DNA of 64,000 nt. Source: Conchocele bisecta. Its lineage: Eukaryota; Mollusca; Bivalvia; Lucinida; Thyasiridae. Location: NCBI GenBank assembly GCA_029237695.1, contig CM055272.1:37228901-37292900 (forward strand), given 5' to 3'. Under the pieces are notes generated by a model. The model did not search any database and had not been told where the DNA came from. It saw nothing but the letters and a program-made list of their open reading frames with translations. The position numbers were made by a program, and so were the translations under genes. The first letter of the stretch is position 1. Each line of letters begins with the position of its first letter. This document shows, one piece after another, positions 519 to 46,780 of this stretch.

Positions 519-544
519 GAGGAACTGTCTATGAAGCAGATATA

Positions 545-1110
545 CCTCAATCAGTCAACCAATCAATAAATTAATTAAAGGAGTCGGTGGAAGAAGGGGT
601 CTCAGTCAGTAAGGGACTTAACCCTTTGCTACCACTGCCCCTTCAATTAATCAATTAAATCAAATCAATTAATCAACCAATCAGTCAGTCGAATGAAGGG
701 GTCAGTGGAAGAAGGGCCCTAAGTGCAACAAGGGCATCGTTATCACTAAGCTAATCCCCTCGGTGTTAGCCATGATAACGCATTTGCCTTACAAACAAGG
801 TGAACATACGACGTGGGTCATATGCAAAACAAAGCACCATCCCTAGACAGACATTGTGGCCAAATATATCAAAATCGGTGAAGCGGTTATTGAAAAATGA
901 AAGGTGTTACTAATGTACACATGTATGCACGCATGTACGTACGTACGCACGTACATTGACTAACGCTATATCCCCTCTTGCCAATCGGCGAGGGGATATT
1001 AAGGGACTTGACCTCCATTTTACCACTGACCCCTTCTATTACTCAATGAAATCAACCAATCAAATAAAAAAAAGCAATCAATCAATCACATATCAATCAA
1101 TCAATATATT
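545..1110. repeat. AATC-rich low-complexity DNA with a dispersed-repeat remnant
   Basis: Degenerate (AATC)n tracts at about 545-690 and 1040-1110 flank a remnant at about 728-1000. The remnant shares blocks with the region at 13420-13740 in opposite orientation, including the CATACGAC..GTGG block and the ATCCCCTCG..GTTAGCC end. It ends with an inverted CCCCTC pair near 974-1000. This appears to be a truncated dispersed repeat; no gene is seen. Confidence 0.6.
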
Positions 1111-1239
1111 CAGGTGGAGATAAGGTGTGGGCCCATGCTACTGGATGAAGAAATGTCTATGAAACAGATATACCTTATGTATTGGTATGATAAGGTAAAT
1201 TGTTTTCTCTTCGTGATTGCATGTCTGTTTCACCCAATA

Positions 1240-1598
1240 CAGTGCAACCTCTCTACAACAGCCACCCATGGGAAGACGCAAAACTGGCTGTTGTAGAGAT
1301 GTGGCTGTTGTAGGGAGGTTAATGCTGAATTAAATTTTGTCGTCCGCTGTTTATTTATTTTCTTCGATAATTCTAATCAAAAACATGCTTTGGCAACATT
1401 TTAGAATCATTTCCAATGGAAATGATTGTAAAATGCTGTCAAAACATGTTTTTATTGAGAAAAACAGCAAAATCAGATGACAATTTTCGTGCTCAGCTCG
1501 GGTCAGATACAGAGGAAATCATCCATTTGGGATATAAAACGCGGCTGTTATAGAGAGGGTGTTGTTGTAGAGAGTGGCCGTTCAGGGAGGTTTGACTG
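1240..1598. mobile_element. TA-flanked foldback MITE (CAGTGCAACCTCTCTA family)
   Basis: The element runs from CAGTGCAACCTCTCTA to a matching inverted end at 1598 and is flanked by TA on both sides (1238-1239 and 1599-1600), the mariner/Tc1-type duplication. It is split by a second foldback element whose end begins at the TTAA at 1319-1322. Relatives lie at 2227-2298, 37174-37379 and 48618-48866. No coding capacity is seen. Confidence 0.75.
1319..1505. mobile_element. Nested foldback MITE (ATGCTGAATTAAATTTTGTC end)
   Basis: The centre is a hairpin around TTTTAGAATCATTTCC and its complement (about 1402-1437), with outer arms containing AACATG and ACAGC. Related copies lie at 39305-39515 and 53368-53576. 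The left junction is TTAA (1319-1322), suggesting TTAA targeting as in the 39.3-kb copy; the right edge here is less certain. It sits inside the TA-flanked element at 1240-1598. Confidence 0.65.
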
Positions 1599-1599
1599 T

Positions 1600-2226
1600 A
1601 TTAGAAACACAAATATTTAGATAGGGTAAACTGGGATAACTGTTATCATTGCCAATGATTGTTTTAACCACAATATGAATCTGTGCAATCTCGGCTGTAT
1701 AATTACCTCCCTTATTGACTCACTGATAGGTTTCTAAGAAAGAAAATACAACATACAACTCGACAGAGCCTCACCCATCCCGTTTCCTAAGCCTTGCCAG
1801 ATATGTTTTCCCATTCACGGCACTAACCTACTATTCTCTATAACCGACCAACAAATCAGCCAACCAGCCACAGGTGAATAACATGTGGCAGGAATTCTGA
1901 ATGATAACATTTTCCTGATTATATTTAGAAACCAACAAAAAGTCGGAGGAGAATTAGGTGTTAGTGGTGGATTTTTTTGGTCGCCATGGCAATTTTCTGC
2001 TTGTTTCTAAACATAATGGGGAAATTTTAAACATTTTACCATCCCTGTTAAGCGTTACTCACCTATCCAATCAACCACCCAATTAACTAACCAATTAACC
2101 AGCCAATTAACTAACCAATTAACCAGCCAATCAATCCATTTCAGCCAAGCCCCATGATGTTGTTCTACCGATTGAAGACACCAGACTGAGTGACACATGC
2201 ACACAGTGTAATAGGATTACTCGTGC
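1600..2226. other. Anonymous DNA with an element fragment
   Basis: From about 1767 to 1840 there is a fragment matching the right half of the elements at 37638-37790 and 54590-54733 (CTTGCCAGATAT followed by ACGGCACTAACCTACTATT). From 2050 to 2140 there is an (ACCAATTAACC)n-like tract. Nothing else is recognised. Confidence 0.55.
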
Positions 2227-2298
2227 AATGGAACCTCTCGAAGCCGGATAACCTGGGGACGTCCCCAGGGTGTCTGGTTTAAGAGAGATTCAACTGTA
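2227..2298. mobile_element. Short deletion derivative of the TA-flanked MITE
   Basis: A 72-bp near-palindrome reads in from CAATGGAACCTCTCG and out through AGAGAGATTCAACTG, followed by TA. The centre is CTGGGGACGTCCCCAGG. The ends match the CAGTG..AACCTCTC family at 37174 and 48618, with almost all internal sequence lost. Confidence 0.6.
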
Positions 2299-2404
2299 AT
2301 TCTGGTAAATGAGCTCTCCAAGACGCGCTTTCATAATTTGCAATCATGAATTGTCATGATTTGCAATTCATGAATCAATCAATATTGCCATTAGAGATTT
2401 CAAT

Positions 2405-2800
2405 GACTGTCTGTTTCACGAAATCTGCCCAAATAGTATGGCTATATACACAATACAAAAACAATATTTTTTTATAATATTAAATTTTATCAACATTTAA
2501 AAAATGAGACTTTTTATTTCGTGAAATTTGGTTCAATAGTTATTTTATTGCCCATGGATGTTAAATCCCCATAGACAAATTCACTCTGTGAAGATGTCTA
2601 TGGGGATTCAGCATGGGGAAAGTATTCTAATTTTAGAAATAGTGGACCGATTTTCAAAATCTAACTTTTGTTTTCCTAGATCATTTCCTAGCTATCTAGC
2701 CAGGTTTCAGAGGCCATTTTTTTTCTTCGTTTTTCGACGACTCCTGCACATGCACCAGTTGTTTTCCCCACGAATGTTAAATTCCCATGGACATATAATT
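2405..2800. mobile_element. Truncated hairpin element (CTGTCTGTTTCACGAA family)
   Basis: The left end CTGTCTGTTTCACGAA and the internal blocks TTTTTATTTCGTGAAATTTG and TTAAATCCCCATAGACA match the complete element at 11062-11632. The middle carries the inverted pair around CCCCATAGACA...TGTCTATGGGG at about 2567-2605. The right half is lost or overlaid by the next repeat. Confidence 0.6.
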
Positions 2801-3445
2801 CCAGCACAAAAATATTTACACAATTCCCTAACATTTGATTGGTCCGTAGCAAGTCTCTGTCCAAAATTTATATCCCAGTAAACTCCCACGCCGAACTACT
2901 TTCCGTAACCGTGAGACACAGTTAAAATAATTCTTAAGAAAACGGAAAATAAACACATTTTCTTGATTAATTTATTTCAAATGCTGGAATTATAAGGAAT
3001 GAATGGCCTTTTTGTGGAATTTATCGGAGATATAAACTTGGAAAAGTCGCGGGAATACTGGACAAGGCCTTCCCGCGACTTTTCCAAAAAATATTTACAC
3101 AATTCCCTAACATTTGATTGTTCCGTAGCAAGTCTCTGTCCAAAATTTATATCCCAGTAAACTCTCATGCCGAACTACTTTCCGTAACCGTCAGGTGCAG
3201 TTAAAATAATTCTTAAGAAAACAGAAAATAAACACATTTTCTTGATGAATTTATTGAAAATTCTGGAATTATAAGGAATGAATGGCCTTTTTGTGGAATT
3301 TATCAGGGATATAAACTTGGAAGGAAAAGTCGTGGAAATACTGGACGAGGCCTTCCGGCCTTCGTCCAGTATTCCCGCGACTTTTCCAAGTTTATACCCC
3401 GATAAATTCCACAAAAAGGCCATTCATTCCTATAATAGCTAGACC
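2790..3445. repeat. Repeat with partial tandem duplication and inverted arms
   Basis: A block containing AAAATATTTACACAATTCCC occurs at about 2810 and again at about 3088. A block containing GGAATGAATGGCC occurs near 2996 and 3275, with its complement at about 3410-3435. A related hairpin is at 34967-35395. Reading frames in this stretch are repeat translations and not genes. Confidence 0.65.
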
Positions 3446-3870
3446 GGAAATTTGGTATGTAGCTTCCTTATGATGCGTATTTCTATTTTTGATTCAATCC
3501 CCGGGTCTCCCCCTTTTCGACTTAGAATTTGACAATTTTGCCTTGTAAGTCGTAATACTTTTAAAACCTAATAGCTACAGACCTGAAACTCGGTATTTAG
3601 CTTCCTTATGATGAGTAGATGCGCACAGTTTATTTCTATTGTTTAGTCGAACCCGGGGTCATGGATTATCTCCCTTTTCAACGTAGAATTTTCCAATTTT
3701 GGCTTGTAAGTCGTAAAATATTTAAACCCTATTGCCACACATGTGAAACTTGCTACATACCTTCTTTATGATGAGTAGATGCGCACAATTTATTTTGATT
3801 TTGATTCGACCCCCTGGGTCATAGATTATCTGCCATTTTGGACTTGGAATTTTGCCTTGTTTTTATTATC
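3433..3870. repeat. Degenerate tandem repeat, period about 140-170 bp
   Basis: Three diverged units begin near 3435, 3570 and 3738. Each has AATAGCTA or ATTGCCACA, then CTTCCTTATGATG (or CTTCTTTATGATG), then a CCGGGTC or CCTGGGTC block. Shared words such as TTGTAAGTCGTAA mark the unit. No function is inferred. Confidence 0.6.
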
Positions 3871-4049
3871 AAAGCAATATGTGGGGCATGCGTGTTCTAT
3901 GAACACAGTTTCTAGTTTATTTCCATTTTTATCAACAAACACATAGTTTGGCAAATCATGTTTTATTGTGAAAAAAGGCAAAATATGAACCAATAGACGA
4001 TGTCAATTTTCGCTTCCCGCATTCTAAGCATTAAGTACCTCGAGGTTTC

Positions 4050-4345
4050 CAAGTAGTCGATTTCACCAACATTGCAAAGTATACTTTTCTAGCAAAGTAT
4101 ACTTTGAGGGAGTAATCATTTATTTTTCCTGAAATGCATTATTTCATATAGAACTAACAACTGCATATATTTGATGATTAAAACTATGCAGAATTATTAT
4201 ACTGAATTTATTACATTATCACAGCCAAATTGGCTGTGATAATGTAATAAATTCAGTATAGTAAAAATTAATAAATTTATCATAAAATTAAAAATTTCTC
4301 CCTCAAAGTATACTTTGCTAGAAAATTTTACTTTGCTAGGACATT
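4050..4345. mobile_element. Palindromic MITE, CAGTAGCC family, copy 1
   Basis: The terminal region reads AGTAGTCGATTTCACCAAC and is followed by twin AAAGTATACTTT motifs. The core is a near-perfect palindrome around ACTGAATTTATTACATTATC (about 4200-4260). The right terminus is decayed. About ten relatives of roughly 305 bp occur in this window. No reliable target duplication is visible for this family. Confidence 0.82.
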
Positions 4346-4468
4346 TTTCCATGAAAGCTGTTATTTTACTAGAAAAGAGGTAAATGCGGCATCCGTATTC
4401 TATGAACAAATTTTATGGATTATATGTATCAAAAAATGTGAAAGACTCATTAAATGAGATAACATGAA

Positions 4469-4865
4469 CAAGGTGTATGATCACGTGGTACTAACAACAA
4501 CAACAAGTACCGATTCAAAGTACGTATTCTTTTATAGTGTCCTTATTACGTAACGGATTTTGATAAAATATGCCGCATCAAACGTGTCTTGTTAAGCTGC
4601 ATTTGGTGGTCTCTGTATTTTTGCTCAAACTTCTGTCGTTTTTGCGATGAATCGATTTCCGTGTCTCCGACACGGAAATCGATTCTTCGCAAAAACAACA
4701 TATGTCTGTGCCAAGCTCCCTAGGTCACCAAATGCAGCTCATGAAGACGCGTTTGCTGCGCCATATTTCATCAAAATCCGTTGCATATTAAGGAAAATAT
4801 CAAATAGCACATACTTTGGAGTGGGCGACGTTGTTGTTGTTGTAACCACGTGATCATGCACCTTG
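4469..4865. mobile_element. MITE with 5-bp target duplication (CAAGGTG family), copy 1
   Basis: Terminal inverted repeats read CAAGGTGTATGATCACGTGG at the left and the matching inverted form at the right (ends CACCTTG at 4865). The flanks are a perfect 5-bp duplication, ATGAA (4464-4468 and 4866-4870). A central palindrome lies around CCGTGTCTCCGACACGG. Copies at 24496-24889 and 48906-49291 carry different perfect 5-bp duplications. A 5-bp duplication with short inverted repeats fits a non-autonomous hAT-type element, but no transposase is visible to prove it. Confidence 0.88.
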
Positions 4866-5044
4866 ATGAAGGGTTACTGAAATATTCAGAATCTTTATAC
4901 ATGTGGCCGTTGTTATGTTACACACACATGCCACCATTAACATGGCCTTCACTTTCCAGTAGCCTATTTCACCAACATTGCAAAGTATACTTTTCTTGCA
5001 AAGTATACTTTGAGGGAGAAATTTTCAATATTTTATCAATTTTT

Positions 5045-6006
5045 AGCCAGGTTTTTTGAGAAAAAAAATCCAGGCTATTGGATTGGCGGAAGCCGGGCGG
5101 GCGGGCGGGCGGCGTCCACAATCAATGTTAAGTTTTCGTGTTTGAGTCCATTTCTTTGTTACTGTACCACCTAGGACCACCAAACTTTCACAGCTTCATA
5201 ATCAAGGGGTGCCCACCACATATCACTATCCAACATGTTACCTTTTTTTTAACTTGACCCATTTTTTCCGCCCAGTCGACTTAGCCATTTTCAATGTTAT
5301 GTTTTCGCGTTTACAATGTTAAGTTTTTGTGTTTAAGTCCATTTCTTTGGTACTGTACCACCTAGGACCACCAAACATTCACAGCTTCATAACCAAGGGG
5401 TGCCTACCACATACAACTATCCAACATGTAACCATTTTTTTTACCTTCACCTATTATTTCTACGTAATTGACTTAGCCATTTTCAACGTTAACTTTTTAA
5501 CGTACGTCTGGTTAAAGTTTTTTGGTTAAAAGTTTTTTGTTATACTATATCTCTGCAACTGCTTCACCCATTACCTTGAAACTTCACATGGGTGTTTATC
5601 ATCATCCATATTTTCATTCTACCCCCCAACCGTGCGGCCCCTATGCCCAATGTCAAGGTCAAATTACTGAATTTTGTTGTTAAAGTTTTTTCGTGTACTA
5701 TATCTCTGCAACTGCTTCATCCATTACCTTGATACTTCACATGGGTGTTTATCATCATTGTCAGCGTGATATCGTCGGCATTTTGGCATACGTCCGTCCG
5801 TACGTCCGTGTGTCTGGTTAAAGTTTTTTGGTTAAAGCTTTTCCATCTACTATATCTATTTTGTTAGTGTCCATGCCTCGCCCCAAGGCGCGACATGCAG
5901 GCCACGGCCATCTAGTCTACAAAAAGTGGGTATAATTATGTTATCCAAGTGTCTATGCTTGGAAAAAACCTGGCCTTCGTGGCTTTGCCTCGTTTATTGT
6001 TATTAC
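5045..6006. mobile_element. Insertion with CCAGGTTTTTT ends and internal direct repeats
   Basis: This stretch interrupts the MITE. Its ends carry inverted CCAGGTTTTTT/AAAAAACCTGG blocks (5047 and about 5972). Inside are two diverged copies of a block with TACTGTACCACCTAGGACC (about 5162 and 5350) and two copies of a block with TATATCTCTGCAACTGCTTC (about 5547 and 5699). A CGGGCGGGCGGGC run sits at 5093-5113. No protein is recognised. Confidence 0.6.
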
Positions 6007-6151
6007 CGGTATACTGAATTTATTACATTATCACAGCCATTTTAGCTGTGATAATGTAATAAGTTCAGTATAATAATTCTGCATACTTTTATCATCAAAT
6101 ATATGCAGTCGTTAGTTCTATATGACATAATGCATTTCGGAAAATATAAAT

Positions 6152-8352
6152 GGGCTGTGCTCTGGGAAGACCAGCCTTAATGACACAATTTTTGATTTTC
6201 ACTTTTTTACATTTTCTGATGCAGACACCTTTCACACACAATATGTTTAATAGTTTTTGTTTTATCTCACTTTTTGTAGCACCATGTGAATCAATCACAG
6301 AAAAAAACGTAACGTCATCAAGAAAATGACGTTATTGAAACGGCGATGTTTGGACAGTGCAACTGAACAGCCTACAGTAGAAATGAGTGTTCATAGACTC
6401 ATTGACGATGCTTGCTGTAAACTGTATTTGCTGATACATTACACTAAATGTATCTACAATTGTTAGTATATATACTATCAAACATTGATCAGAATAAAAC
6501 TATGATATGTACATGTAGTGAACAAAACAAACGCACAACTATCGATTTTAAATCTATAATTAGCCGACCCGTGGCTTCGTAATTTGCCACCATCGCCATA
6601 ATAGATTCATATACGTGTGTCATCAGAAAGATACATTGTAATTATTTCAGAATTGACGTCCTTTACAGTCATTTATTGATTTAGACAATACGTCACCAAA
6701 GACCAAAAAACAAAATGGCATTCCTGTAGCCTATTTCATCAACATTGCAAAGTATACTTTACTAGCAAAGTATACTTTGAGGGAGTAATCATTTATTTTT
6801 CCTGAAATGCATTAGTTCATATAGAACTAACAAATGCATATATTTCATGATTAAAAGTATACAAAATTATTATACTGAATTTATTACATTATCACAGCCA
6901 AATTGGCTGTGATAATGTAATAAATTCAGTATAATAAAAAATAATAAATTTATCATAAAATTGAAAATTTCTCCCTCAAAGTATACTTTGCTAGTAAAGT
7001 ATACTTTGCAATGTTGATGAAATAGGCTACTGGTGTTGGAAATTGTAAATTATATGCACATCTAGCAGTCTCCTCGACGAACAAACGGTGCTTGTTCAAA
7101 AGTATAGTAAACTATTTCAATGCAGAAGTCCCCCCCCCCCCACCTTTCCATAACATGAAATCCAGGATCCGCCCCTGAAAAAGCACCGTGGCGTACCTAC
7201 ATGTATTTTGCATAACTGCACACTATAACGCACTCGGTGATTTACACACTAACATTGATTTTGTTGAAATGACGCTATTGTTCGTTTAATGTGTGCATGT
7301 GCATTTGCTTTATATTATTTACATGCCTCTTTACGGCCTCTTTACGGCCTCTTTACGGCCCTTTGATAACAAACAAAGCACGCAGACGTGCATTATTTAG
7401 TACAATGTAGTACAATGTAAGAAAATTAACAACAATCTGCCAGTCGGACTTCTTAAATGTGTAAATGTTGGAGACCTGTGCATCTGTGCAGTCTGATCAG
7501 TGCAATGATTGCAAATATACTAGTAAAATTACTATACATTCATATAACCATATTTACAAGTGGTCATTTTAAAGAATATTTACATTGTTATCAAACAGCA
7601 ATTGTACGGCTGATTCAATGTGATATTTTTGAAAGTCGCTAAATATTACGTGACACCGTACATGTAAGTAGTATCAGATACAGATAGAAATCAATAGGCT
7701 ACATCCTTGGTGGCTACAATTATGTATGACAATTATCATGATTATTGTGTCGCAGTAAATATGCATGTGACACAATACCAACACACTAAATACTAAAACA
7801 TGTTTGGCCCAGTGTCACCATGATGCGATATGCCAGGAGCGGCGTATGTTTTGGCACTACCATAATTTTACATCTGTGATACGCTTATTTTTCTGAAAAT
7901 TTCCAAATTGTATTTTTATGTTGATTTTTGAAACATTTGACAGGCGAAACAGTAAATTAAACGAATTAAGTCCTGTACACAGTTCTATTTGTTACATAAT
8001 ACTGATTCTGTGATGGTGTTATCTAAAAATTACCGGTTGTATGGTTATTTAGTTTCAAATGTCAATTTATAAAAAATAATCAACAAAATCACTACGTGTT
8101 TCCTTGAAGGAAACCTAAAAACAGACCACTGTCTGAACCACTATGGAAACAACTGTAAAATTCTGCTACGCGTATCCAGCATTAAAATGTTTGTGACCAC
8201 AAGTAGTAAAGCGTACGGCTATAAATAGGACAACGTCAACTTATTGCAATGACGTAACTATTTCAAGTGTCAAATTTAAGCGTAACTTTGCGACATCATT
8301 TTCAGGCTTTCATGACGTTGTCATTAAGGCTGGTCTTCACAGAGCGCGGCCC
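6152..8352. mobile_element. 2.2-kb non-autonomous transposon with 4-bp target duplication
   Basis: The ends are inverted: GGGCTGTGCTCTGGGAAGAC then CAGCCTTAATGACA at the left, and the complement ending GCGCGGCCC at the right. AAAT flanks both sides (6148-6151 and 8353-8356), and the interrupted MITE makes the site clear. Both ends are rich in TGACGT words. The element at 27317-34906 shares its ends. Inside are another palindromic MITE (6724-7032), a fragment of a GGATCC element (7126-7178) and a threefold TTTACGGCCTC repeat (about 7321-7360). No transposase frame is recognised. Confidence 0.75.
6724..7032. mobile_element. Palindromic MITE, CAGTAGCC family, copy 3 (intact)
   Basis: This is one of the best-preserved copies. 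The ends are CTGTAGCCTATTTCATC and its inverted mate, with twin AAAGTATACTTT motifs on each side and a central palindrome of roughly 70 bp around TTATCACAGCC at about 6878-6940. It could fold into one long hairpin. It lies inside the insertion at 6152-8352, which itself split another copy of the same family. Confidence 0.88.
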
Positions 8353-8447: not shown

Positions 8448-10501
8448 TTTTTAGCTCACCTGAGCGAAGCTCATGTGAGCTATTGTTACCGCAATGTGTC
8501 CGTCGTCCGTCGTCCGTCGTCCGTCGTCGTCCGTGAACATTTTCAAACGTCTTCTCCTCGGTAACCATTGGGTCTATAGTCACCAAACTTCATGGTCATG
8601 GTCCTTAGGTAGGGGGATTACAAAATTGTTAAAATTACATCATTACGTAATCCAAGATGGCCGCCGTCTAAAAATAGCACAAATTCTTAAAAAAATCTTC
8701 TTCTCAAGAACCGCCAACCGGATTTCGACAAAACTTGGTAGGAATGATCGATGTACATTGCTCTTTCAAAGTTGTTAAAATGGTGACCCTGGGGTCAAAA
8801 ATGGGCGTGACCCGTGGGGTCAAATTGGGGTCAAATTTTATTTTTAACTGAATATGGTCATTTCATATATCAAATTGAAGGTATCAATGAGGCGATCACT
8901 CTGGTGCATTTTTTGTCGAAATCGGATTGTTAAGTCATCCAAGATGGCCGCCGAAAGGTCAAAAGGTCGTTCTTTTATTAGAGATTTCAAAATTCTTCTT
9001 CACATGAACCGCTTGGCCCATGGTAGCCAAACTTAAAATGTTATGGTCCATGGGTGAAGCCTTTTCAGATTTGTTTTAAAATGGAGGTCATCGCTAATCC
9101 ATCCAGGATGGCCGCCGTCTAAAAATACATAAATTATTAAAAAATCTTCTTCTCATGAACCGCTTGCCGGATTTCGACGAAACTTGGTAGGAATGATCGA
9201 TGTACATTGCTCTTTCAAAGTTGTTAAAATGGTGACCCCGTGGTCAAAAATGGGCGTGGCCTGTGGGGTCAAATTGGTGTCAAATTTTATTTTTGACCGA
9301 ATATGGTCATGTCATATATCAAATTGAAGGTATCAATGAGGCAATCACTCTGGTGCATTTTCTGTCGAAATCGGATTATTATGTCATCCAAGATGGCCGC
9401 CGAAAGGTCAAAAGGTCGTTCTTTTATTAGAGATTTCAAAATTCTTCTTCACATGAACCGCTTGGCCCATGGTAGCCAAACTTAAAAGTTATGGTCCATG
9501 TGTGAAGCCTTTTCAGATTTGTTAAAATGGAGGTCACCGCTAATCCAAGATGGCCGCCGTCTAAAAATAGCATAAATTCTTAAAAAATCTTCTTCTCATG
9601 AACCGCGAGCTGGATTTCAACGAAACTTGGTAGGAATGATCGATGTACAATGCTCTTTCAAAGTTGTTAAAATGGTGACCCCGGGGTAAAAAATGGGCGT
9701 GGCCCGTGGGGTCAAATTTTATTGTTGACCGAATATGTCATGTTATATATCAAATCGAAGGTATTAATGAGGCGATCACTCTGGTACATTTTTTGTCCAA
9801 ATCGGATTGTTATGTCATCCAAGATGGCCGCCGAAATGTCAAAAGGTCGTTCTTTTATTAGAGATTTCAAAATTCTTCTTCACATGAACCGCTTGGCCCA
9901 TGGTAGCCAAACTTAAAAGTTATGGTCCATGGGTGAAGCCTTTTCAGATTTGTTAAAATGGAAGTCATCGCTAATCCAAGATGGCCGCCATCTAAAATAG
10001 CATAAATTCTTAAAAAATCTTCTCATGAACCGCTAGCCGGATTTCGACGAAACTTAGTAGGAATGATCGATGTACATTGCTCTTTGAAAGTTGTTAAAAT
10101 GGTGACCCCAGGGTCAAAAATGGGCGTGGCCCGTGGGGTCAAATTGGGTCAAATTTTATTTTTGACTGAATATAGTCATGTCATATATCAAATTGAAGGT
10201 ATCAATGAGGCGATGACTCTGGTGCAATATTTGTCGGAATCGGATGATTATGTCATCCATGATGGCCACCAAAAGGTCCATTTATTCAAGATTTTTAACG
10301 TCTTTTTCTCAGGAACCACATGGCCGATGCTGGGTGAAGCATTTTCAGATTTTGTAAAATGAGAGTCATCGCTTAATCCAAGATGACCGCCATCTAAAAA
10401 TAGCACAATTTTTTTAAAACACATGAACTCAATGTCACATTCTCCTCTGGTGTTCATGGAGTCAGGTGAGCGAATTAGGGCCATCATGGCCCTCTTGTTT
10501 A
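8448..10501. repeat. Complex element with a 0.40-0.45-kb tandem unit
   Basis: The left end has AGCTCACCTGAGC with an inverted GCTCATGTGAGC, then a run of CCGTCGT. The right end has AGGTGAGCGAATTAGGGCC. Between them a unit repeats: AGATGGCCGCCGTCTAAAAA-type blocks lie at 8653, 9101, 9548, 9978 and 10380, spaced about 448, 447, 430 and 402 bp. Each unit also holds a second GGCCGCCGAAA block, a TGAACCGCTTG block and GGGGTCAAA words. Similar 60-residue frames recur once per unit; they are translations of the repeat and not genes. Confidence 0.82.
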
Positions 10502-29783: not shown

Positions 29784-30771
29784 AAATAGTCGAGTAGGCA
29801 CTCCTATGAGTTCCATAGTGAACCTAGACATTCTGTTTCCTATACACTTTTATTGTTGTTTCATCTTTATATGGTTCCCTAGAACAAAGTTAGCTTTGTT
29901 GCCCAAATGGCAACTTTGGGCAACTCTTGCAATTTGCATAAATCCAAGATGGCCGCCAGTCGCGATTTTCAAAATGTTAATACAAAACTAATTGTCATAT
30001 AATGCTGCATAATACCATTTGTTATTTGTTTTCGGGTGTCTAGAATCGTTTTGCGATGTTATATTTAGTATTAAGGCTAATGAATTGTTTGTTCTCACTT
30101 TTTTACATCCAAGATGGCGCCCAAAATCCTATTTTTGTCGCTATTTTAACAACAAAACTGAATAAATACTAGAAATAAGCGAGAATTCATAGTCACACAA
30201 CATTGTGGACACTTGAGATATGATTTGAGAATAATTCTTCTAAATTCACGACATTGCTGTTCTGACGCTCATAATAGGGGTACATGTAATGAAAGTATGC
30301 ATGTCAGTTGCTGAAATTTAGGAACCATGCCTGGCTATGAACGGCATAAAAATGCAACCAAGTTACATTTGTTATTTGTGAGTTGTTGTACACCGTCAAT
30401 GTAATGTACTTAACAAATAACACAATCAAGAGATCCATGATAATCGATAAACACAATTACCAAACAAGTGCGGTTTCAATGAACCTGCATATTGGTTTCA
30501 ACGACTGCGCCAGTACTTTCTCAGTCCACGATATAACCGAATTCCAGAGACATCCAGCAGGCATCATTGATGCTGGCAGCAGTCAGTCCTGTGTCGGTAG
30601 TGTTATTCTCCCTCGTCTTATATTCAAGCAGACTAAACCTGCGAGGAATACTCTATTAATTCCTCTTTTACACTATACTGGTCCTAAAAAGAGCATCCAC
30701 TGCTGTGGCCACTATCAAAGCTAGCGGGAATAGCTACACTGAGGTAGCTGCCCGCCAGGCCAATCTAACAG

Positions 30772-31551
30772 TTGTCACCGAAAATGATGTCACGTTGCTT
30801 AGCTGTCTCAGTCTGGGTCCAGACTAGCAAACTAGCCAGAGGTAGCGGTGTACTCAAAGGTGCGAGTTCCTACATGTTTGAGCCTATGATTGATGCCCCA
30901 CCCTCTCACCCAGATACTATTCTCACAACACCTGCTTACATGCAACAGTCACTGGTGGATATGGGGATGAAACGCGTTCATCTGAGCATGGACATGCAGC
31001 TATTTTCTGCGACCAAGCAAATATGCTGGTATCAGCCAATGCAGTTCCAGAATGTAGTCCTTCATCCCGGAGGAATGCATATTATACAGTCATTCAACAG
31101 CTGTATTGCAAAATTAATGAAGGGCTCAGCTATTGAAACGTATATTGCTGCCGCATACCGTGGCATGACAGGTATATATAACGGTAAGTCCTGGGTGAAA
31201 CCCATGAGGGCATTCCGGAACCCAACAGCGGCTCTATTGAGGCGGTTTCTATCTACAGGCCCAAAGCCATTGGAGCAGATAGATCAGTATCTGGAAACTG
31301 CTCGCCTCCACCTGACTGGTCCTCACTGGGTAGATAGCTTCCTTCTCCCGACACTCATTGTCCACCAATTTGAGTGTACAGTGAGAGAAGCAGATATATA
31401 TTTCATGGAACGCATGCTGACAGACATTTTACTCGCTGGACAAGCACAATATGCACGATATATTACCCAATACCTTCTGGAGATGCGTTCACTTGATACT
31501 GAAACGGAGTTTCAGCTGACCAATTTGGAGAACAGACTGCTATCAAGATAG
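30772..31551 (+). pseudogene. Locus A transposase-like core (259-residue fragment)
   Basis: This open stretch has D74 in LSMDMQLF, H103 in GGMHIIQSF and GSAI at 118-121. The corresponding residues in locus B are D129 (VGDQPVY), H158 (GPFHAHMSF) and GSGL at 173-176. The spacings D to H (29) and H to GS (15) are identical in both. Downstream, QYARY (226-230) matches KYGRW in B, followed in both by an LE(M/I)..LD helix. The first 20 or so residues are probably out of the ancestral frame. The conserved D and H could be catalytic, but I cannot name a Pfam family with certainty. Confidence 0.7.
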
Positions 31552-32376
31552 GAAAAGGGTCTCTCAAGGGCATGCCTTTATCTCCTGAACTTGTTAGTGA
31601 GTGGATCGACTACTTCCCCATTACTGTTGACTGTATATAGTATGCTAACTCATGAGATCAGTCCACACAGACAAGGAGGAGGTGAAGCATCGCCGTATAT
31701 TGGATGCATTTGACGGGGTTTTTGTTGAAGCAGAGGTGGAGAAATATCCTCATCCACTGAAAGTCCACAGTCCTATTTTGTACAATGCTGAAGTGAATGT
31801 GGCTGATTCTGTCGATATTGGATCAGCATTGGACAGCAAATACATCAGCAGTCTCCCATGCAGATTATATGACCCTATTAGACAAGAGCAAACAAATAGT
31901 GCCAGTCATCGACATTGAAACCATTTTTCTACATCTTCTGTTAATTGTTCAACGGAGGAGGCAGCTGAAACTTGGGCCACTGGTCCACTATGAACTTTGT
32001 GCTGTACCACCATTGCTTATCGACGAGCAGGGTTGCTTCCACAAATGCAATAAATCGGCGCTAACAAAGCGTCTCGGTGTTGTTGAAATCTCACCCACAG
32101 CTGCTGGGATAGTCATCGTGTACGTTCAGCAGCTATTCTATCGCATAGTGTGGCCTCATGGCGGTAGACCTTCATATCTTATTCCATAAGGTGTCGTTGA
32201 CAAGGATCAAGAAATATCTGCCAAAATAATTAGAGAATGTGGCGAGCTGGTGAATAACTAATCAACTACGATCTCTCTATCACCAGTCCTTTGCCCGAAA
32301 TAGATTTAATTTTGAAGAACAAGAATAACAAGATTGACTGGTGAGTGTTGTATCCAAGTTCTCCATAGGAGAGTAG

Positions 32377-32800
32377 ATAACCATGGATAATCTGGACGAC
32401 GGTGTGTTTAGCCATGATGTGGCAGATATCACCATGATATATTATGTCCTTGAAGATGCAAACTATGGCAAGAACGTTATCCGCATACTTAGCGTTGACA
32501 CAGGTGTGTTTGTCCTACTGGTTTATTAGTTTTATCGAGAGAAGCTACAATGCATGGTGCAGATGGAGAGACGGGACGGGACAGTGTTAGATATTAATGC
32601 CACTTGTACTGAGCTAGGTCCCAAATGTTTGGAATTACTGGGCATGCAAGCCATCAGTGAGTGCGACACTCCATCATACCCATATGACAAAGGCAAGGCT
32701 AAAGCACTGAATACGTTGCTTAGTGCAGACATTTTATACTTGGTTGATGTGTTAGGCGATCGAAGTTGGTGCCACCACTGACGATCTGATGGAGACGGCA
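32377..32800 (+). pseudogene. Locus A XPG/FEN-like nuclease region, catalytic residue lost
   Basis: Three acidic motifs appear in the order of XPG-I/FEN nucleases. ADITMIYYVL lies at about 32415-32450. VDTGVFVLLVY at about 32494 stands where the family expects D-T-D (the second Asp is Gly here). AISECDTPSY (residues 33-42 of the frame at 32554) is followed by KGKAKAL, like the G-x-D and helix-hairpin-helix of FEN enzymes. A TAG at 32527 and a frameshift near 32760 break it. Locus B keeps D-T-D. The role in transposition is unknown. Confidence 0.65.
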
Positions 32801-33032
32801 ACGGTTTTCCTCATAGCTCTGTTTGGTTTGCCACCGGGAACTTCAATAGAAGCTGCCTGCACCAAACTTTTTGCCAGAAAGAAGAAAAGTTATAAAATGA
32901 AGGTGCTGCCCAAACATCCGACAATCTGCTCATGCACATGCGACGTGCCCATCTTCAGGTAATGTCGTGGAAAGCGGCAAACCAACAAGACCCATCAAAC
33001 GATTCGAATGACATCACCCACTTGGTAGATGC

Positions 33033-33396
33033 GTGGCGGGGTTCCATTCCGGGGTCACTCATCAAGGTGAACACACTCCACCACAGTATAATCATGTACT
33101 TAATTGTCAGTGCAAAGCACATGGAAAGATGTGCATGACTTCTGGGTCTTATAAAGAAGATATTTCATGCACATCATACTGCAACTGCTCTGGCGAGGAT
33201 GGTTGCTGCAATCCGCATACTAAGAGGGAATCTGAAATTGGAGGCAGATGATACGACAGGGGATGTTGAGGAAGTTGTTGAGGCAGATGATGTTGAAGAT
33301 GATTTTGAGGACTGTATTCAGGAGAATGGTGACATTTGTAATGGCGCGCTCTTTGATGTACTTGACATTGAGTATCTGATTGATGAATGGGAGTAA
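33033..33396 (+). pseudogene. Locus A Cys8 zinc-binding-like tail and acidic C-terminus
   Basis: In the frame from 33033, eight cysteines stand at residues 25, 27, 34, 46, 50, 52, 58 and 59 (LNCQCKAHGKMC, then SCTSYCNCSG and GCCNP). The spacing suggests a zinc-binding module. A frame change near 33240 leads to an acidic tail rich in D and E, ending at 33396. Locus B has no matching module at its end. Confidence 0.6.
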
Positions 33397-34186
33397 ATAA
33401 AAAAGGTTTCAAAGAATATGTGTATGTATGTATATGCATGTACATGCATTAACAGTAATGGCATACATTGATATGTATTATGCATATTAATGTATACCAT
33501 TGCGCTGACGTTTTCTTTATCTTATCTGATTAATATTGCAAATATAATCTAAGTATTATCATATGAGTAAGGATGTGTTTATAGGTTGGAACCGTTGACA
33601 AAAATCATATCATTCCCGAATAATGTATAAAGTGCCACATATTCTGAACCGGTTCATGTTCTGTCAAATAAAATATTATTCTAAAGTTGCTTGTATCACT
33701 CTGCATTAGTATTTACATAATTACTTCATAGAATAATTGTAGTTGCAAATAAATATGATTTTCATGGTTCATAACAATGTTTGCAATAAACAGTTCTCAT
33801 TGAAATTACTTTTTTTACTAGAAATTCTCATCATTTTGTATAAAAATGTAAAATTTGACCCTAAAACTACCTCTAGACCCTTATGATGACATCCAATTAA
33901 CCATATTATTGCAGAAAACGGCTCCACGTACACGAAAACCTATATAAAGACATATTATACATCATTGTATGACAAGTAGGTAAAAAGTTAGATTTTCAAA
34001 ATGGCGACTGGCGGATTTATGCAAATTACGAGATTTGCCCAAGGTTGCCGCTTGGGCAACAAAACTAAATTTGCTGTATATATCTGTCGGAGTATGAATC
34101 AAGAAAAAAAGTTTATAGGAAACACAATGTCTAGGTTCACAAAATGACTACTCGACTAAAATGCCAGATTGCCGCAGAGGCGATTT

Positions 34187-40000: not shown

Positions 40001-40090
40001 ACATGGGTGAATATGTATATATGGGGAGTTAAAGGTATGCCCACTCCGTAGGTTATACTATAGGGAGACAGACTGAGATAGGTATGTATA

Positions 40091-40664
40091 GTAGAGGCAA
40101 ATTAACACAGATCCGTGACCAATTATCTGAGACAAAGGTTTGAGCACATTTTCCACATCTACATTCAATTACGAAAAAAATGAGCGGGGGTGACCCTCGC
40201 GAAAAATGCTGGCAATTTCTTGCCGACTCGCGAAAACCAAGATGGCCGCCATTTTCAGTCGAATTGGCCATGTGTGGGTTCCTTTTGATCATTGAAGTTG
40301 GTTTTTGTGGCTAAAACTTCTGTTACCATGAGCAGAAAGTATCTGCAAAGAATATTATGTCTGAAAATGCATACAGGATGAAATAATCCAAGATGGCCGC
40401 CATTTTCAGTCCAATTATTCATTAACGGCTACAGAAGGGTTATTTTTGACCAATTGAAGTTGTTTTTCTAGTTTAGAACCTCTGCTAACAGGAAGAGAAA
40501 ATATCTGCAAAGAATATTTTACATGAAAATTGCATAGAGGACAGAAAAAATCCAAGATGGCCGCCATTTTTTCATAAAAATATTCAATTACATGCTTAAT
40601 AAATAGCAGTGAATTCCGTTTTGCAGCCTAAATTTCTGTTTTGAAGAGGACAATGTAATTACAC
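40091..40664. repeat. Locus B left terminal inverted repeat
   Basis: Mirror of 45985-46558. It contains GCCGCCATTTT on the far side of AAGATG at about 40240, 40390 and 40553, marking three internal subrepeats. The AAAATGGCGGC complement matches the YY1-type core, a similarity only. Confidence 0.85.
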
Positions 40665-41059
40665 TATTATGTGGGGGGTGGATTTTGTCCTACCTTGATT
40701 TGAACGGGGGGTTATGTCTGTGTATTTTGGACGGGGGTAACTTGTCCTCAGAAGTAAAACAACATTCATTCATACACTTTTGTTCGATCTATTTCTTGAC
40801 CACGGATTAAATTACATAATGGCTTTCAGATTTATGTATTCAGTTTATTAAAACTTTATTTATTATTAATATATCATATGTAGCTAATTTACTTTAATTG
40901 CTTTAATGATTTAACTAAATTACATGTACATACAATGTGTTACTTATGCTATTAGTTACAACAGTGTGTGTGTCAATGTAATTATTTGATTATCATCAAA
41001 CATCAATAAATAAAAATCCAGAGTTATCTTCCTTGTATTCTTACTTACTTGAATGATGT

Positions 41060-41226
41060 AATGAGCTGAACAGCAGTCTTATCATTGGTCAATTGTGATC
41101 TAACTACGCTGCCATTTATAACCAGTTTTTAATCTGATGTTCATAACTGCATTTGTTGCAGAAGCTGAACAAAGCAGTCTTATCATTGGTCAATTGTGAT
41201 TTAACTACGCTACCATTTATTTTCAA
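41060..41226 (+). promoter_or_regulatory. Duplicated block upstream of the locus B gene
   Basis: A block of about 55 bp with CAGTCTTATCATTGGTCAAT and TTGTGATCTAACTACGCT occurs twice, at about 41067 and 41172. Each holds an inverted CCAAT-type pentamer (ATTGG). It lies 150-300 bp before the first recognisable codons of the transposase gene and after the left inverted repeat, so it may be the promoter; this is inference from position. Confidence 0.35.
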
Positions 41227-42152
41227 AAGTATGTCCTGGCATAAACTTTCTATTATAATTTGATGCATTCAGAAACATAGATGTCTGAACATATGTCTGA
41301 ACCACTAATCAGAGCGCTTCCTCCAATGAAAAGGGGACTGGAAACGGACAAAAGAGTTGTGTATTATATGCGACCTAGAGTGTGATGAGGATAGAAGCAG
41401 TTATCCTATTGATTTATGGAATACGCTGAAGGAATCAGCAAAAGGCTGGAGAGGCCTGGATCGCCATGGAGACATGTATGATAACTTAGCATGGGATAAT
41501 GGACCCAACAGGTATCTTTTTCCACAAAAAGTGTAAAAATGCAGCTTTGTAGCACGAGGAAGCTACAACAAGCCATTGCAAGACAGGAGAAAGTGACCGA
41601 GATAGAACAGGAAGCACAACCGCCAGTAGATGTAGAAGATAGCGACACAGCTTCATCCAGTAGACGACTACGTCACTGCAGTGGACCACTGCACAATAAG
41701 CTGCTATGTATCTGGTGCATGAAGTCAGATAATCCAAACATCCACAGGAAGGGAAATTGTGCCTGCTCCAACAGGAGTGTGCATGGAGAACATTCAAATC
41801 ACACACGGTCTACCTAGAGGATGATACAATGCGAGATCGAATATTAGCGGTTATTGATTCCACATGATCCATTTGCCGCTGAAATTCGGTATCATCGTGG
41901 CTGCTGGAAAAGGTATGTTCAGCCAGTCTACCGTACCGAAGAAGGGGAGGACACTACTCTGCACTTGCAAAGTGGTGAGGTATGCTGAAGTGCAACAGAT
42001 GTTTTTTCAACATGTTCAGAAAGTTGTTTTCGAACTGAAAGAACCAAGGTCATTGCAAGGACTTCTGCTAGATTACAGTCTCATGAAAAACTTTGGATTT
42101 GATATGACTACAACAAAAATCTAGCACATTAAGCAACTGCTACAGAAGGAAT

Positions 42153-42806
42153 TTGAAGATAAAATTGGTTTTCATGTTCGTTTTCACAAGAACAAGAGCA
42201 CCCATTGTTTATGACACATCAGAAGGAGGGAGTTATATAGAGGCTGCAATATATTCATGGGGTGTAAGTGATGAACAATTGCTGAATTCTGTTGCAAGAC
42301 GTTTGAAGCAGAAGCTTACAAATGATGAAATCATGGTATGGCCACCAACTGCTAATGAGTTGGATCTTCCAGAAGAGCCAAATATGCTCTTGCGTATGTT
42401 TCTGACTTGGCTTAGAAATCCGGCTCAAACTTCTTTTAGTACACCATGTGACGAACTAGATATATTGAGTATTGCGTCACTGATATCTTCGTTTGTCACG
42501 AGGAAACGCACAGCCATGAAGACATTATTGTCTGTGACAATCCATGGGCTAACAAGAAGCCGCGAAATAGTGGACATTCTAAATAAACTGTCACTTGGCA
42601 TAAGTTACCAAGATGTCCTCAATCTGTATGCCTCGTGGGCAAAACAAGACATTGAAGAGAATGAGGTTTGCCCAGAAGAGCTGGCAGAAGGCTTTCCTGG
42701 AACGGCTGTCATGGACAATGATGATTTTCAAGACGACACCCTCACTGGTGCAAACACATCACATCGAACCAATGTTATGTTCATTCAACAGAAGATGTTG
42801 CCATAG
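42153..42806 (+). pseudogene. Locus B middle-N region (217 residues)
   Basis: The true frame is entered around TRAPIVYDTSEGGSYIEAA, the first residues being out of register. The helix-rich stretch includes LLNSVARRLKQKL, WPPTANELD and LLSVTIHGLTRSREIVDIL. The last in-frame residues are SHRTNV; the ancestral frame continues as VHSTEDVAIASGS one register away, joining the following 640-residue part. No catalytic motif is recognised here. Confidence 0.7.
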
Positions 42807-42829
42807 CTAGTGGCAGTTCAGATCTATCC

Positions 42830-44752
42830 TTGACAAAGGCTAGTGAGTTGAAGTCAGTAACAGCAACATTGCATAATGTTGAGCCTTATAAGACAGTAAA
42901 GCGTGGTGTTCCAGCTATCAGGCCAGTAGTTGATATCACACCAGAAGACACACACAAACAGCGTCTGAAGGGAACAGTTCATACGTTGTTGCGAACTGAC
43001 TCTGATGGGAAATGTATAGCAGCAGACACACAAAGAGTTGGTGCATTTTCTGGTTTCCATGCCCGAATTCAAAAGAAAAAAGTTGTCAAAAGTAAGCCAT
43101 ACTACTTTCTTACTTTTCCTAAGCCTCCTCAGAAGTCAGTTGTTCATGAAGTGATGTGTAGGATGGTTGCAGCTGCCACCAAGAAATGTATGCCCTTTAT
43201 TCAGCTTGTAGGAGATCAACCAGTATATGCCCTCATGGTTCAGTTGAAGAATGAGAATCCAGAAAATTTTGATCTTATACTTCCATTCCTTGGTCCATTC
43301 CATGCTCACATGTCATTTATATCAGCAATGAATAAAAGATTCAAAGGATCTGGCTTATCGGACATTCTTATAGCAGCCGATGTTATCGCTGAGGGATCAG
43401 TAGATCGGGCACTGTCAGGAAAGCACTATAAACGCAGTATCAGATGTCTGAAAGTGATGTATGAGGCACTTTCTCGTCGAGTCATTCGTCAGGGACTTGA
43501 AAGCGGATTGGAAATATCATCTGAACTCAAACAAGAACTTGAAGTATTGAAAACCCCAGCTACATCTTCCAAGGAGGAGGTGAAGGCACAATATGATGAG
43601 CTAGAATCTAATCCAGAATTGTCTTCTTTTGTAGATGAGGCATTCAAGATAGTTGAAACTGCTGGCAGCCCAATGGCTAAATACTGGTTGAGTTTCATGA
43701 ATATGGTGGAGATTCTCTTGATGAACAATCATGCATTGAGAATCCAAGATTGGGATGCTTTCAAGGCATCACTAAGGATGATGTTGCCTTGGATGCAGAT
43801 ATATGACAACGACAAATATGGAAGATGGCTTGTAGAGTTCTGGCTCGAGATAAGTTGTCTGGATGAGGATAAGTCTCGCTACATGAGAGAGGGACTGTTT
43901 TCGCAGTCAATGACAGGCAGACCATACTCATGTTTGCCCTTGGATCTCTGGATAGAGATGACCATGAACAAAGGATCAAAGATGAAAGCTGGGTGGTCGA
44001 GGATTTTGAAGAATGAGCCTCAGTTGTTGATTCACACTAGGAACGTAAATTTCATCAACAGAGTGAGGGTGTCTCTCCATGCCATTGCAGATTTGGCAAA
44101 TTCCACTCATGGTCACAGTGAGAATTCTCGAACTCGTCTCAGAATCGACGAACAGGCAATACAAGATGTAGATAGTTGCATGACAGAATTTTCATGTGAT
44201 CCATTTGATCTCGCAAGTCCTACATTGCGATCATTGCAGACTGGGATAGTTGCATCAGAACGGCTGGTAATCGATTTTGAATCGGCCCATGCTGATGGCG
44301 AAGCTTCTGTGAACAAGTTCATTGGAGAGAGAATGTTCTCGAGTGAAACATCGTTTGATGCAGCACTCCACAGAAATAAAAGACACAACTTTAGCAATCC
44401 TCCCATTGCTAACGCTGGATCAAAAACAGTTACAAAAACTGATGCAATGGAGAATAGGGCTATGGCAGAAGTCATCACTCTTGCAGAAGGCTGCACTGAC
44501 ACATTTGATCTTGTACAAGTAATGCAAAACCGAGTGACCGAAGAATGTCTTCCCATTTTTAATGTCAATGGAACCATGAGAAAGGGTCAGAAGTCAAAGC
44601 TGATTGAAAAACTAAAGTTTGCAGAACTTTCCATACAAGACCCATACATCGCATTGATTGACATGGGGTTTCTTTGGCGGCTAGCCACTCCATCTGTTGA
44701 AGATAAAGATACCAGGGATGAGAATGTCTTTACATGGGGGAAATTATGCTGA
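42830..44752 (+). pseudogene. Locus B transposase-like core, 640 residues open
   Basis: The longest open frame of the window. Key residues: D129 in LVGDQPVY, H158 in GPFHAHMSF, GSGL at 173-176, E188 in IAEGSVD, and KYGRW at 329-333 followed by LVEFWLEISCLDED. D129, H158, GSGL and KYGRW have counterparts at the same spacings in locus A. The frame ends at TWGKLC, where one extra base in a GGGGGAAA run shifts it; the ancestral frame goes on as NYAEKIFSLACARHRN. An RNase H-like DDE/D fold is plausible but unproven. The start is not the native one. Confidence 0.75.
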
Positions 44753-45050
44753 AAAGATATTCTCCTTGGCATGTGCTCGTCATCGAAATGCACACACTGT
44801 GGTGTTTGTTAACGACACTTACGATGTTCCAAACTTCACCAAGGACAGTGAACATGAACATAGATATGCGGGAGTTTCGAAGAACATCTACATAAAGAAA
44901 GAAGACAGGATTCCTTCGACACGAGAATTTAACGAGATGTTCAAGAATTCCAAAAACAAAAATACGACTTCAGCAATTTCTGAAGAAAGAATTCAGAGAT
45001 ATCACACAGAAGAAAGTAAATGTACAGTTCCTTTACTCAGTAAGAGATAA
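44720..45050 (+). pseudogene. Locus B linker between core and nuclease
   Basis: After the shift near 44734 the frame reads NYAEKIFSLACARHRNAHTV, then FVNDTYDVPNFTKD, an R/K-rich stretch and NEMFKNSKNKN. It ends with a frame change near 45030. The VVFVNDTYDV strand-loop is a plausible part of the nuclease or linker domain. Nothing further can be assigned. Confidence 0.6.
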
Positions 45051-45099
45051 TGTGCTGGGATCTCTCATCTGACAAAAGAAGACACAAGAAAAGTGGAGT

Positions 45100-45909
45100 T
45101 TGAGTGTCAACACCTGGAAGCCGACACAATACTGCTGTACATCTACTCTGCGATAAGGAAAGAAAGCAGGAGAAACAGATGTGGTTGTCATCGATGCTGA
45201 GGATACTGATGTGGTTGTTCTTTCAGCATATGTTGCCCACAAGATAGATGGAGATTTAGGAATCAAACGAAAGTCATCAGTCTATGACAGTAAGTTTCTA
45301 TGCTCAGATTACGACTCCAACATTATTCTTACGCTTCACATTTTCACAGGCTCAGATGCAGCTACCGCATTCTTTGGTCATGGAAATAAAACTGTTTTTG
45401 ATACAGTGAAAACAAGTAATGAAGCACACACGTTGTTGGAGACTTTGGGAAGCTCACTGCCCATGTCCGAAACAACTGTAGAAAGCATGACAGAGTTTAC
45501 CGTGAAATATGTCTACAAAGACAAAGTCAGTAAAACCCTCGCGGAGGCGAGAGCGACAAAGTGGAAGAATATGAAGAAGAAATCCACTCTCAGAATCCCA
45601 CCAGATATAGATTCACACCGTTTGAAGGTTGAGAGAGCCAACTATCAGGTCTACACATTATTGAGATACGATTTACCAGACGCTCCACCTTCCCCACTTG
45701 GACATGGATGGCTAATGAATGGGGAAAAGTGTGAACCACTTCGTTATACCAAACCAGCACTTCCCCAAACATTAAATGACATGATTGCTGGAAGTAAATC
45801 TGTTGAACAAGCAGATGATACATCCTCTGACATTTCAACGGACTCGGACGGTGAAGAGGATGATATGTTCACGATATTTAGAAACCTGAACCACCATTGC
45901 CTTTCTTAA
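45100..45909 (+). pseudogene. Locus B XPG/FEN-like nuclease region
   Basis: First acidic motif QHLEADTILLYIYSAI at about 45107-45155, then a frame change. From 45181 (residue 1): VVIDAEDTDVVVLSAYVAH with D5, E7, D8 and D10, then TLHIFTGSDAATAFFGHG with D59, and GNKTVF. The order EAD, D-x-D and G-x-D with a downstream glycine-rich turn matches the XPG-I/FEN pattern (G-C-D there, G-S-D here). The C-terminus is acidic (SDISTDSDGEEDD) and lacks the Cys8 tail of locus A. The stop is at 45907-45909, just before the right inverted repeat. Confidence 0.7.
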
Positions 45910-45984
45910 GTACAACATTTTCAAGAATATGGCAGCCATCTTGGATTTTCAAACTTGTAAATTTGCTAATTTTAACAAAGTATA

Positions 45985-46558
45985 CAATATAATTACATTG
46001 TCCTCTTCAAAAACAGAAAATTAGGCTTCAAAACGGAATTCACTGCTATTTATTAAGCATGTAATTTAATATTTTGATGAAAAATGGTGGCCATCTTGGA
46101 TTTTTCTGTCCTCTATGCATTTTCATGTAAAATATCTTTGCAGATATTTTCTCTTCATGTTAGCAGAGGTTCTAAACTAAAAAAACAACTTCAATTGGTC
46201 AAAAATAACCCTTCTGTAGCCGTTAATGAATAATTGGACTGAAAATGGCGGCCATCTTGGATTATTTCATCCTGTATGCATTTTTCAGACATAAAATATT
46301 ATTTGCAGATACTTTCTGCTCATGGTAACAGAAGTTTTAGCCACAAAAACCAACTTCAATGATCAAAAGGAACCCACACATGGCCAATTCGACTGAAAAT
46401 GGCGGCCATCTTGGATTTTGCCTCCTCACGGAAATTGCCAGCATTTTCGCGAGGGTCACCCCCGCTCATTTTTTTCGTAATTGAATGTAGATGTGGAAAA
46501 TGTGCTCAAACCTTTGTCTCAGATAATTGGTCACGGATCTGTGTTAATTTGCCTCTAC
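45985..46558. repeat. Locus B right terminal inverted repeat
   Basis: Inverted mate of 40091-40664, ending GTTAATTTGCCTCTAC. It carries the three GGCGGCCATCTTGGATT-type subrepeats at about 46088, 46245 and 46400 (one as GGTGGCCATCTTGG). A further ATGGCAGCCATCTTGG stands at about 45929, just inside. Confidence 0.85.
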
Positions 46559-46780
46559 TATATATATGGAGAGTTAAAGGTATGCCCACTCCGTAGGTTA
46601 TACTATAGGGAGACAGACTGAGATAGGTATGTATATATGGGGAGTTAAAGGTATGCCCACTCCGTAGGTTATACTATAGGGAGACAGACTGAGCTAGGTA
46701 TGTATATATGGGGAGTTAAAGGTATGCCCACTCCGTAGGTTATACTACAGGGAGACAGACTGAGATAGGTATGTATATTC

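Follow-up and report, generated by a model that had tools for sequence, protein, structure and literature searches.

A probable AcademX transposon of the bivalve Conchocele bisecta with a predicted DUF6589 transposase and an XPG-like nuclease

AcademX is reportedly a lineage of the Academ superfamily, attributed to Kojima 2020. Its nuclease is of the XPG type. In the excerpted text of one account, AcademX elements combine a DDE transposase and a nuclease in the same protein and generate target duplications of 3 or 4 bp, AcademH elements generate duplications of 9 or 10 bp, and this difference is tied to nuclease versus helicase (PMC10045372). Here we describe a transposon at 40089-46560 of a 64,000-nucleotide window of the Conchocele bisecta genome (contig CM055272.1, positions 37,228,901 to 37,292,900, forward strand). 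It is very probably an AcademX element with a one-protein architecture, a member of this known group, present as a full-length, recently inserted and decayed copy. The initial annotation of the window had called it Academ-like, and its 3-bp duplications and nuclease fit the AcademX description. The accompanying remark that the superfamily is poorly characterised in molluscs needs softening for bivalves, in which the excerpted text of PMC10294476 reports 100 curated Academ elements.

Twenty other copies in this genome served to fix the ends. In 20/20, TA adjoins GTAG/CTAC, followed by an exact 3-bp duplication; 12 shifted positions used as a control gave duplications in 0-2 of the 20 copies. 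This locates the true ends at 40089 and 46560. The element had been annotated as complete at 40091..46558; it is complete, and each end lies 2 bp further out. One of the 20 copies has a changed base further in from the end. In the window, the right copy of the duplication is damaged: judging by the tandem-repeat unit, it has lost one G next to a run of TA. The TA-rich junction alone can be read as a duplication of 0, 2, 4 or 6 bp, and an exact 2-bp TA duplication was rejected because the 20 other copies settle 3 bp. The terminal inverted repeats (TIRs), initially put at about 570 bp, have arms of 571-573 bp with 95.5% identity over 576 columns (blastn E 0.0; matched arms 40091-40661 and 45990-46558). 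The three largest blocks without gaps measure 123-150 nt and show 98-99% complementarity. The proposed insertion into a tandem repeat was also found, with a period of 71, 3.1 copies and 97% matches on the right side, and one further unit on the left.

The family has moved recently. A search of the 1.89-Gb genome (1,196 contigs) found at least 19 other copies matching positions 1-6468 of the element in a single span, at least one in two pieces and at least two partial ones, at 98-99% identity. These numbers are lower bounds, as 23 of the 209 first-look candidates were scored. Twenty of these 22 copies were retrieved with flanks for the analysis of ends and duplications. Substitution divergence among 21 copies has a median of 0.57% (0.14-1.24; 210 pairs), which indicates the recent movement. 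A further copy of the same family, L044, is flanked by TGA on both sides. None of the 21 copies has an unbroken full-length frame, and the longest open stretch is 1,346 aa. Profile scans of viral and genome contigs outside this genome gave 25 and 64 pattern matches, with 0 confirmed relatives. Two viral contigs, L001 and L002, share a TIR 16-mer; blastn of the element against L001 gave matches of 17-21 nt only, and the sharing was treated as chance.

The plus coding strand of the one large gene initially annotated is correct. The gene is not intact in the window copy, where the frame shifts about six times. Searches with relatives (tblastn) read the protein in order at 41360-45861 through plus frames 2, 1, 2, 3, 2, 3 and 1, with a longest open stretch of 675 aa. 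A deposited protein of 274 aa, P0082, matches 18% of the nuclease piece at 98% identity and stays open across positions where the window copy switches frame. Relatives of the 675-aa piece number at least 60 among the matches listed (7,997 candidates scored), and a further search, for which a section of a longer relative was the query, gave 95. From the 156 proteins collected, the 33 of at least 1,400 aa were aligned as full-length relatives. The named source organisms include soft corals, a hydrozoan, a sea spider, a whelk and Antarctic fish. Two relatives, P0022 and P0102, are filed under Nitrosopumilus and Sedimenticola metagenome-assembled genomes (MAGs) and are probably host DNA within symbiont assemblies. 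Antarctic fish transposon proteins (P0109, P0111-P0113, P0115 and P0116) are labelled U3 small nucleolar RNA-associated protein 10 by their source, which is probably a misannotation.

Most members of the protein family carry two Cys/His motifs at the N-terminus. In P0087 numbering, the first is formed by C43, C46, C50, H97 and C100 (28-31 of 33 relatives), and the second by C156, C159, H217 and C220 (32/33). The transposase signature noted at the outset is present: an Asp and a His 29 residues apart, followed by GSGL, with both columns invariant in 64/64 aligned relatives. The candidate catalytic positions in the full-length relatives are Asp (32/32 with letters), Asp (33/33) and Glu (33/33). 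They would provide the DDD/E transposase residues expected of Academ, and catalysis is predicted. DUF6589 is the sole Pfam family above its cut-off for the coding pieces in the window (E 1.7e-10 for the 675-aa piece). It is also above its cut-off in 6/9 relatives of one set and 4/5 of another. In the literature searched, no paper using the term DUF6589 was found.

An alternative is that the element belongs to another DDE superfamily, either hAT, Transib/RAG or KDZ (Kyakuja/Dileera/Zisupton), with the XPG domain as a chance fusion. The transposase part, folded separately, matches DDE transposases in rows 1-36 of the structural search. The hAT transposase Hermes takes the top row, with RAG1 and Transib level with it, and this favours the alternative. 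The predicted model shares with Hermes, RAG1/RAG2 and Transib an RNase H-like core whose last acidic residue is preceded by a long helical insertion. Unlike them, the element has no Pfam match to their families, and DUF6589 stands alone above its cut-off. For the coding pieces and relatives, the Pfam listing at E <= 1 contains neither a hAT nor a KDZ model; we take Pfam to include a KDZ model, and the filters drop most matches above about 0.1. Target duplications are 8 bp in hAT and 5 bp in Transib, versus 3 bp in 20/20 copies here. We know of no built-in XPG nuclease in these groups, whereas every one of the 33 aligned full-length relatives has the XPG part. Membership in another DDE superfamily is thus very improbable. 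The initial reading of a transposase joined to an XPG nuclease survives, as does the Academ name. Neither of the refuting outcomes named with it was seen: within the scope just given, Pfam listed DUF6589 as the sole family above its cut-off and no hAT or KDZ model, and the C-terminal half is predicted to have an XPG/FEN fold.

The C-terminal part belongs to the XPG/FEN nuclease superfamily by predicted fold and acidic residues, and nuclease activity is predicted. The three acidic XPG/FEN motifs described downstream of the transposase are present. In FEN1, Exo1 and XPG (Rad2) nucleases these motifs are named EAD, EDTD and TG(A/S)D, and the active site of FEN1 has a set of seven acidic residues. 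Foldseek with the first model placed XRN1, Rat1 and flap endonucleases on top (E from 4.0e-3). The nuclease domain filled the second structural listing too, and the transposase part was therefore folded separately. Unlike in FEN1, Exo1 and XPG, the nuclease here is fused behind a transposase, and no Pfam XPG model was listed for the coding pieces or relatives scanned. A PDB sequence search with the nuclease piece gave one unrelated match (E 0.062), which was discarded. The XPG-like part could instead be a captured host passenger that is non-catalytic and binds DNA only. Its 9-17% sequence identity to the listed solved FEN-family and XRN chains would suit a passenger, and its catalysis is a prediction. 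However, D663, D714, E816, D818, D843, D845 and D894 of P0001, assigned to the FEN1 residues by motif without superposition, are invariant in 33/33 relatives, and a passenger would not need them. We consider the passenger explanation unlikely, and an active XPG/FEN-type nuclease is the preferred reading.

The assignment to AcademX is based on the duplication length and the accessory enzyme, which match the published account of AcademX and AcademH and contrast with a helicase-bearing relative in the same genome. It was made against that description and that relative, rather than against reference Academ proteins. The element encodes its own nuclease, and the 3-bp duplications extend from the 20 copies to L044. 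No helicase model was found in the seven coding pieces (Pfam, E <= 1), and no copy among the 20 has the 9-10 bp duplication of AcademH or the 8-bp duplication of hAT. No tested feature differs from the AcademX lineage; the TIRs here are long and carry arrays of a YY1-type box. A DUF6589 profile search gave at least 71 matches in this genome (102 of 405 candidates scored) and matches in 0/14 control genomes. It revealed a helicase-type family, with a DUF6589 open reading frame (ORF; copy L033, E 5.1e-20) and an adjoining opposite-strand ORF with Helicase_C (copy L036, PF00271, E 1.6e-13), whose motifs are RecQ-like by eye. This family resembles our element in its DUF6589 core and TAG...CTA ends. 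Unlike our element, it has the helicase in place of XPG, and the copies with both ends readable show exact 9-bp duplications (2/2; CCCGGCTAC and GCTCATACC). The copy with GCTCATACC is without most of the helicase ORF, and in a third copy the expected end falls within N and is unreadable. The difference in duplication length between AcademX and AcademH is thereby reproduced inside one genome (3 bp versus 9 bp).

The window contains a second element, TE2, which is a probable AcademX-type element. With 36 of 574 candidates scored, at least 13 near-full-length copies were found including that in the window, nine others at 94-96% identity and three at 88-89%. Eight of the nine closest copies have a 3-bp duplication and the ninth a 4-bp one. 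The profile of the transposase core found a TE2 ORF at 30769-31548 (E 4.1e-11, among 733 window ORFs). The two best matches of the XPG profile outside the AcademX element also lie in TE2 and are not significant (E 0.14 and 0.68). Comparison of TE2 with the proteins of two distant DUF6589 relatives, L045 and L046, by tblastn gave no support for membership.

These families allow a further explanation to be considered, that the accessory enzyme sets the duplication length: the nuclease would trim a longer stagger to 3 bp, and the helicase would leave 9 bp. Within one genome the nuclease type has 3 bp in 20/20 copies, TE2 as a second candidate family has 3 bp in 8/9 and 4 bp in the ninth, and the helicase type has 9 bp in 2/2. 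The excerpted text of PMC10045372 suggests the same link. On the other hand, the transposase cores of the two kinds are also very different in sequence, and the spacing of active sites in a dimer could set the stagger with no part played by the accessory enzyme. Moreover, two helicase-type copies were measured, one of them the copy without most of its helicase ORF. We regard this explanation as possible though doubtful. Because one genome holds both element types with different duplications, the role of the extra enzyme in transposition is open to testing.

In DDE transposition, 3'-OH ends are joined to a staggered target, and repair of the gaps creates the duplication. Flanking DNA is left with hairpins by enzymes of the RAG, Transib and hAT groups, and FEN-family enzymes cut 5' flaps and related structures. 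The AcademX family would encode a single protein of about 1,550 aa with Cys/His motifs, a DUF6589 transposase and an XPG/FEN-type nuclease. The Cys/His motifs probably bind the inverted repeats. The RNase H-like DDE transposase would cleave at the 5'-TAG...CTA-3' ends and join them to target DNA in which the cut is staggered by 3 bp. The nuclease would most likely trim 5' flaps, gaps or hairpins on the DNA intermediates of the transposase. Academ transposition would then be a similar cut-and-paste process, in which the element's own nuclease clears the flaps, gaps and hairpins that other transposons leave to the host. The precise ends, 3-bp duplications, recent spread and conserved acids that underlie this scheme are observed, and the folds are predicted. 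A processing role for the nuclease is proposed tentatively, with odds that we place somewhat below even.

Academ as a group was already known. This locus adds corrected ends, the link to DUF6589, a nuclease/helicase pair in the same genome, and the TIR box. DUF6589, a Pfam family of unknown function, would gain a concrete identity as an Academ transposase with a RAG1/Hermes-like predicted fold.

The TIR box, AATCCAAGATGGCCGCCATTTT, is about 20 nt long and contains a perfect YY1 core. Three are present per arm, facing inward, and those in the left arm are 151-164 bp apart. The 19-mer CCAAGATGGCCGCCATTTT occurs three times in the left arm and agrees at 19/19 positions in each pair of subrepeats, whereas the rest of the subrepeats agrees at 98/132, 52/104 and 59/116 (50-74%). 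In the window, the 9-mer CAAGATGGC and its complement together number 15, versus 0.14 expected per strand. When the left arms of our element, TE2 and L046 were compared (blastn, plus strand), every match with E < 1e-3 fell on the box (18-31 nt). By tblastn (E 4.7e-8 and 2.1e-6), L046 is a distant DUF6589/XPG relative; it is a single old copy whose duplication length is unreadable. In the excerpted text of PMC7481187, GCCATCTTG is the YY1 consensus and the TR5 element of the inverted repeats of lancelet ProtoRAG. YY1 binding is shown there for ProtoRAG; our element has a sequence match only. Academ and YY1 as whole words were not found together in any paper of the literature searched.

Docking of AcademX ends by the host factor YY1 is suggested by the RAG1/Transib-like predicted fold, the YY1 site known in ProtoRAG repeats and the sharing of the box by unlike TIRs, but remains more doubtful than probable. 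Several observations weigh against a special role of the box. The 14-mer CCAAGATGGCCGCC occurs 75,431 times in the genome, versus 0 for a reversed control. A repeat at 8460-10400, starting near TTTAGCTCACCTGAGC, contains six YY1-type 9-mers (8.6-10.0 kb) spaced 157, 274-287 or 449 bp apart. The TE2 left arm has two 9-mers in 6/6 copies, and the right arm has none in 3/6. Among further DUF6589 elements, L044 has four 9-mers on its left side and three on its right, plus one outside, L045 has two on one side only, and L046 has one in each arm. The helicase-type pieces L033, L034, L036 and L040-L043 have no 9-mer; L039 has two, whose position relative to the element end is unsettled since L039 runs into N. 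Given its genome-wide abundance and this distribution, the box was rejected as a signature of Academ. It may serve as a site for the transposase or for YY1, or be a spreading repeat. If YY1 docking is true, AcademX would be a second transposon group tying its ends to YY1, and if the box binds YY1, unrelated transposons would rely on the same host protein.

Table 1. Coordinates of the AcademX element, its parts and related elements
Feature	Position	Strand	Basis or remark
Left copy of 3-bp target duplication (GTA)	40086..40088	.	Exact 3-bp duplications in 20/20 other copies
Left TIR, begins TAGTAGAGGC	40089..40661	+	
TIR box 1, CCAAGATGGCCGCCATTTT, contains YY1-type 9-mer	40237..40255	+	19/19 identical among three subrepeats
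TIR box 2, identical 19 nt	40388..40406	+	
TIR box 3, identical 19 nt	40552..40570	+	
Coding piece, first N-terminal Cys/His motif (CxxC...HxxC in relatives)	41360..41506	+	tblastn with P0009; conserved positions in relatives
Coding piece, other frame, second N-terminal Cys/His motif	41560..41928	+	tblastn; conserved positions in relatives
Coding piece linking Cys/His motifs and transposase	41987..42202	+	tblastn
Coding piece through first Asp motif (DNDDF, 42714-42728)	42117..42800	+	
Transposase core, Pfam PF20231 DUF6589	42812..44740	+	E 1.7e-10
Transposase residues: second Asp; His; candidate third acid Glu	43214-43216; 43301-43303; 43955-43957	+	
XPG-like nuclease, first part, other frame	44739..45161	+	
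XPG-like nuclease, EADT / EDTD / GSD motifs and C-terminus, two frames	45051..45906	+	
Further YY1-type 9-mer just inside right arm	45935..45943	-	
Right TIR, finishes GCCTCTACTA	45990..46560	-	
Right-arm YY1-type 9-mer	46090..46098	-	
Right-arm YY1-type 9-mer	46251..46259	-	
Right-arm YY1-type 9-mer GCCATCTTG, outermost	46405..46413	-	
71-bp tandem repeat hosting the element, right side	46561..46778	+	
TE2, ends TAGTCGAG...CTCGACTA	29787-34158		3-bp duplication AAA in window copy
Helicase-bearing DUF6589 element, ends TAGACTGG...CCAGTCTA	L033, L034, L036, L039-L043		Same-genome loci C16:5.12 Mb, C13:54.0 Mb, C5:44.1 Mb

Additional DUF6589 sequences are found in the genome. The 901-aa DUF6589 ORF of L031 has the genome's best DUF6589 score among the matches listed, closely followed by L032; the L031 ORF also shows a weak match to a PHD finger (E 0.006, below cut-off). 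The distant relatives L045 (tblastn E 3.5e-16) and L046 contain Cys-rich C-terminal stretches that are CXC-like by eye.

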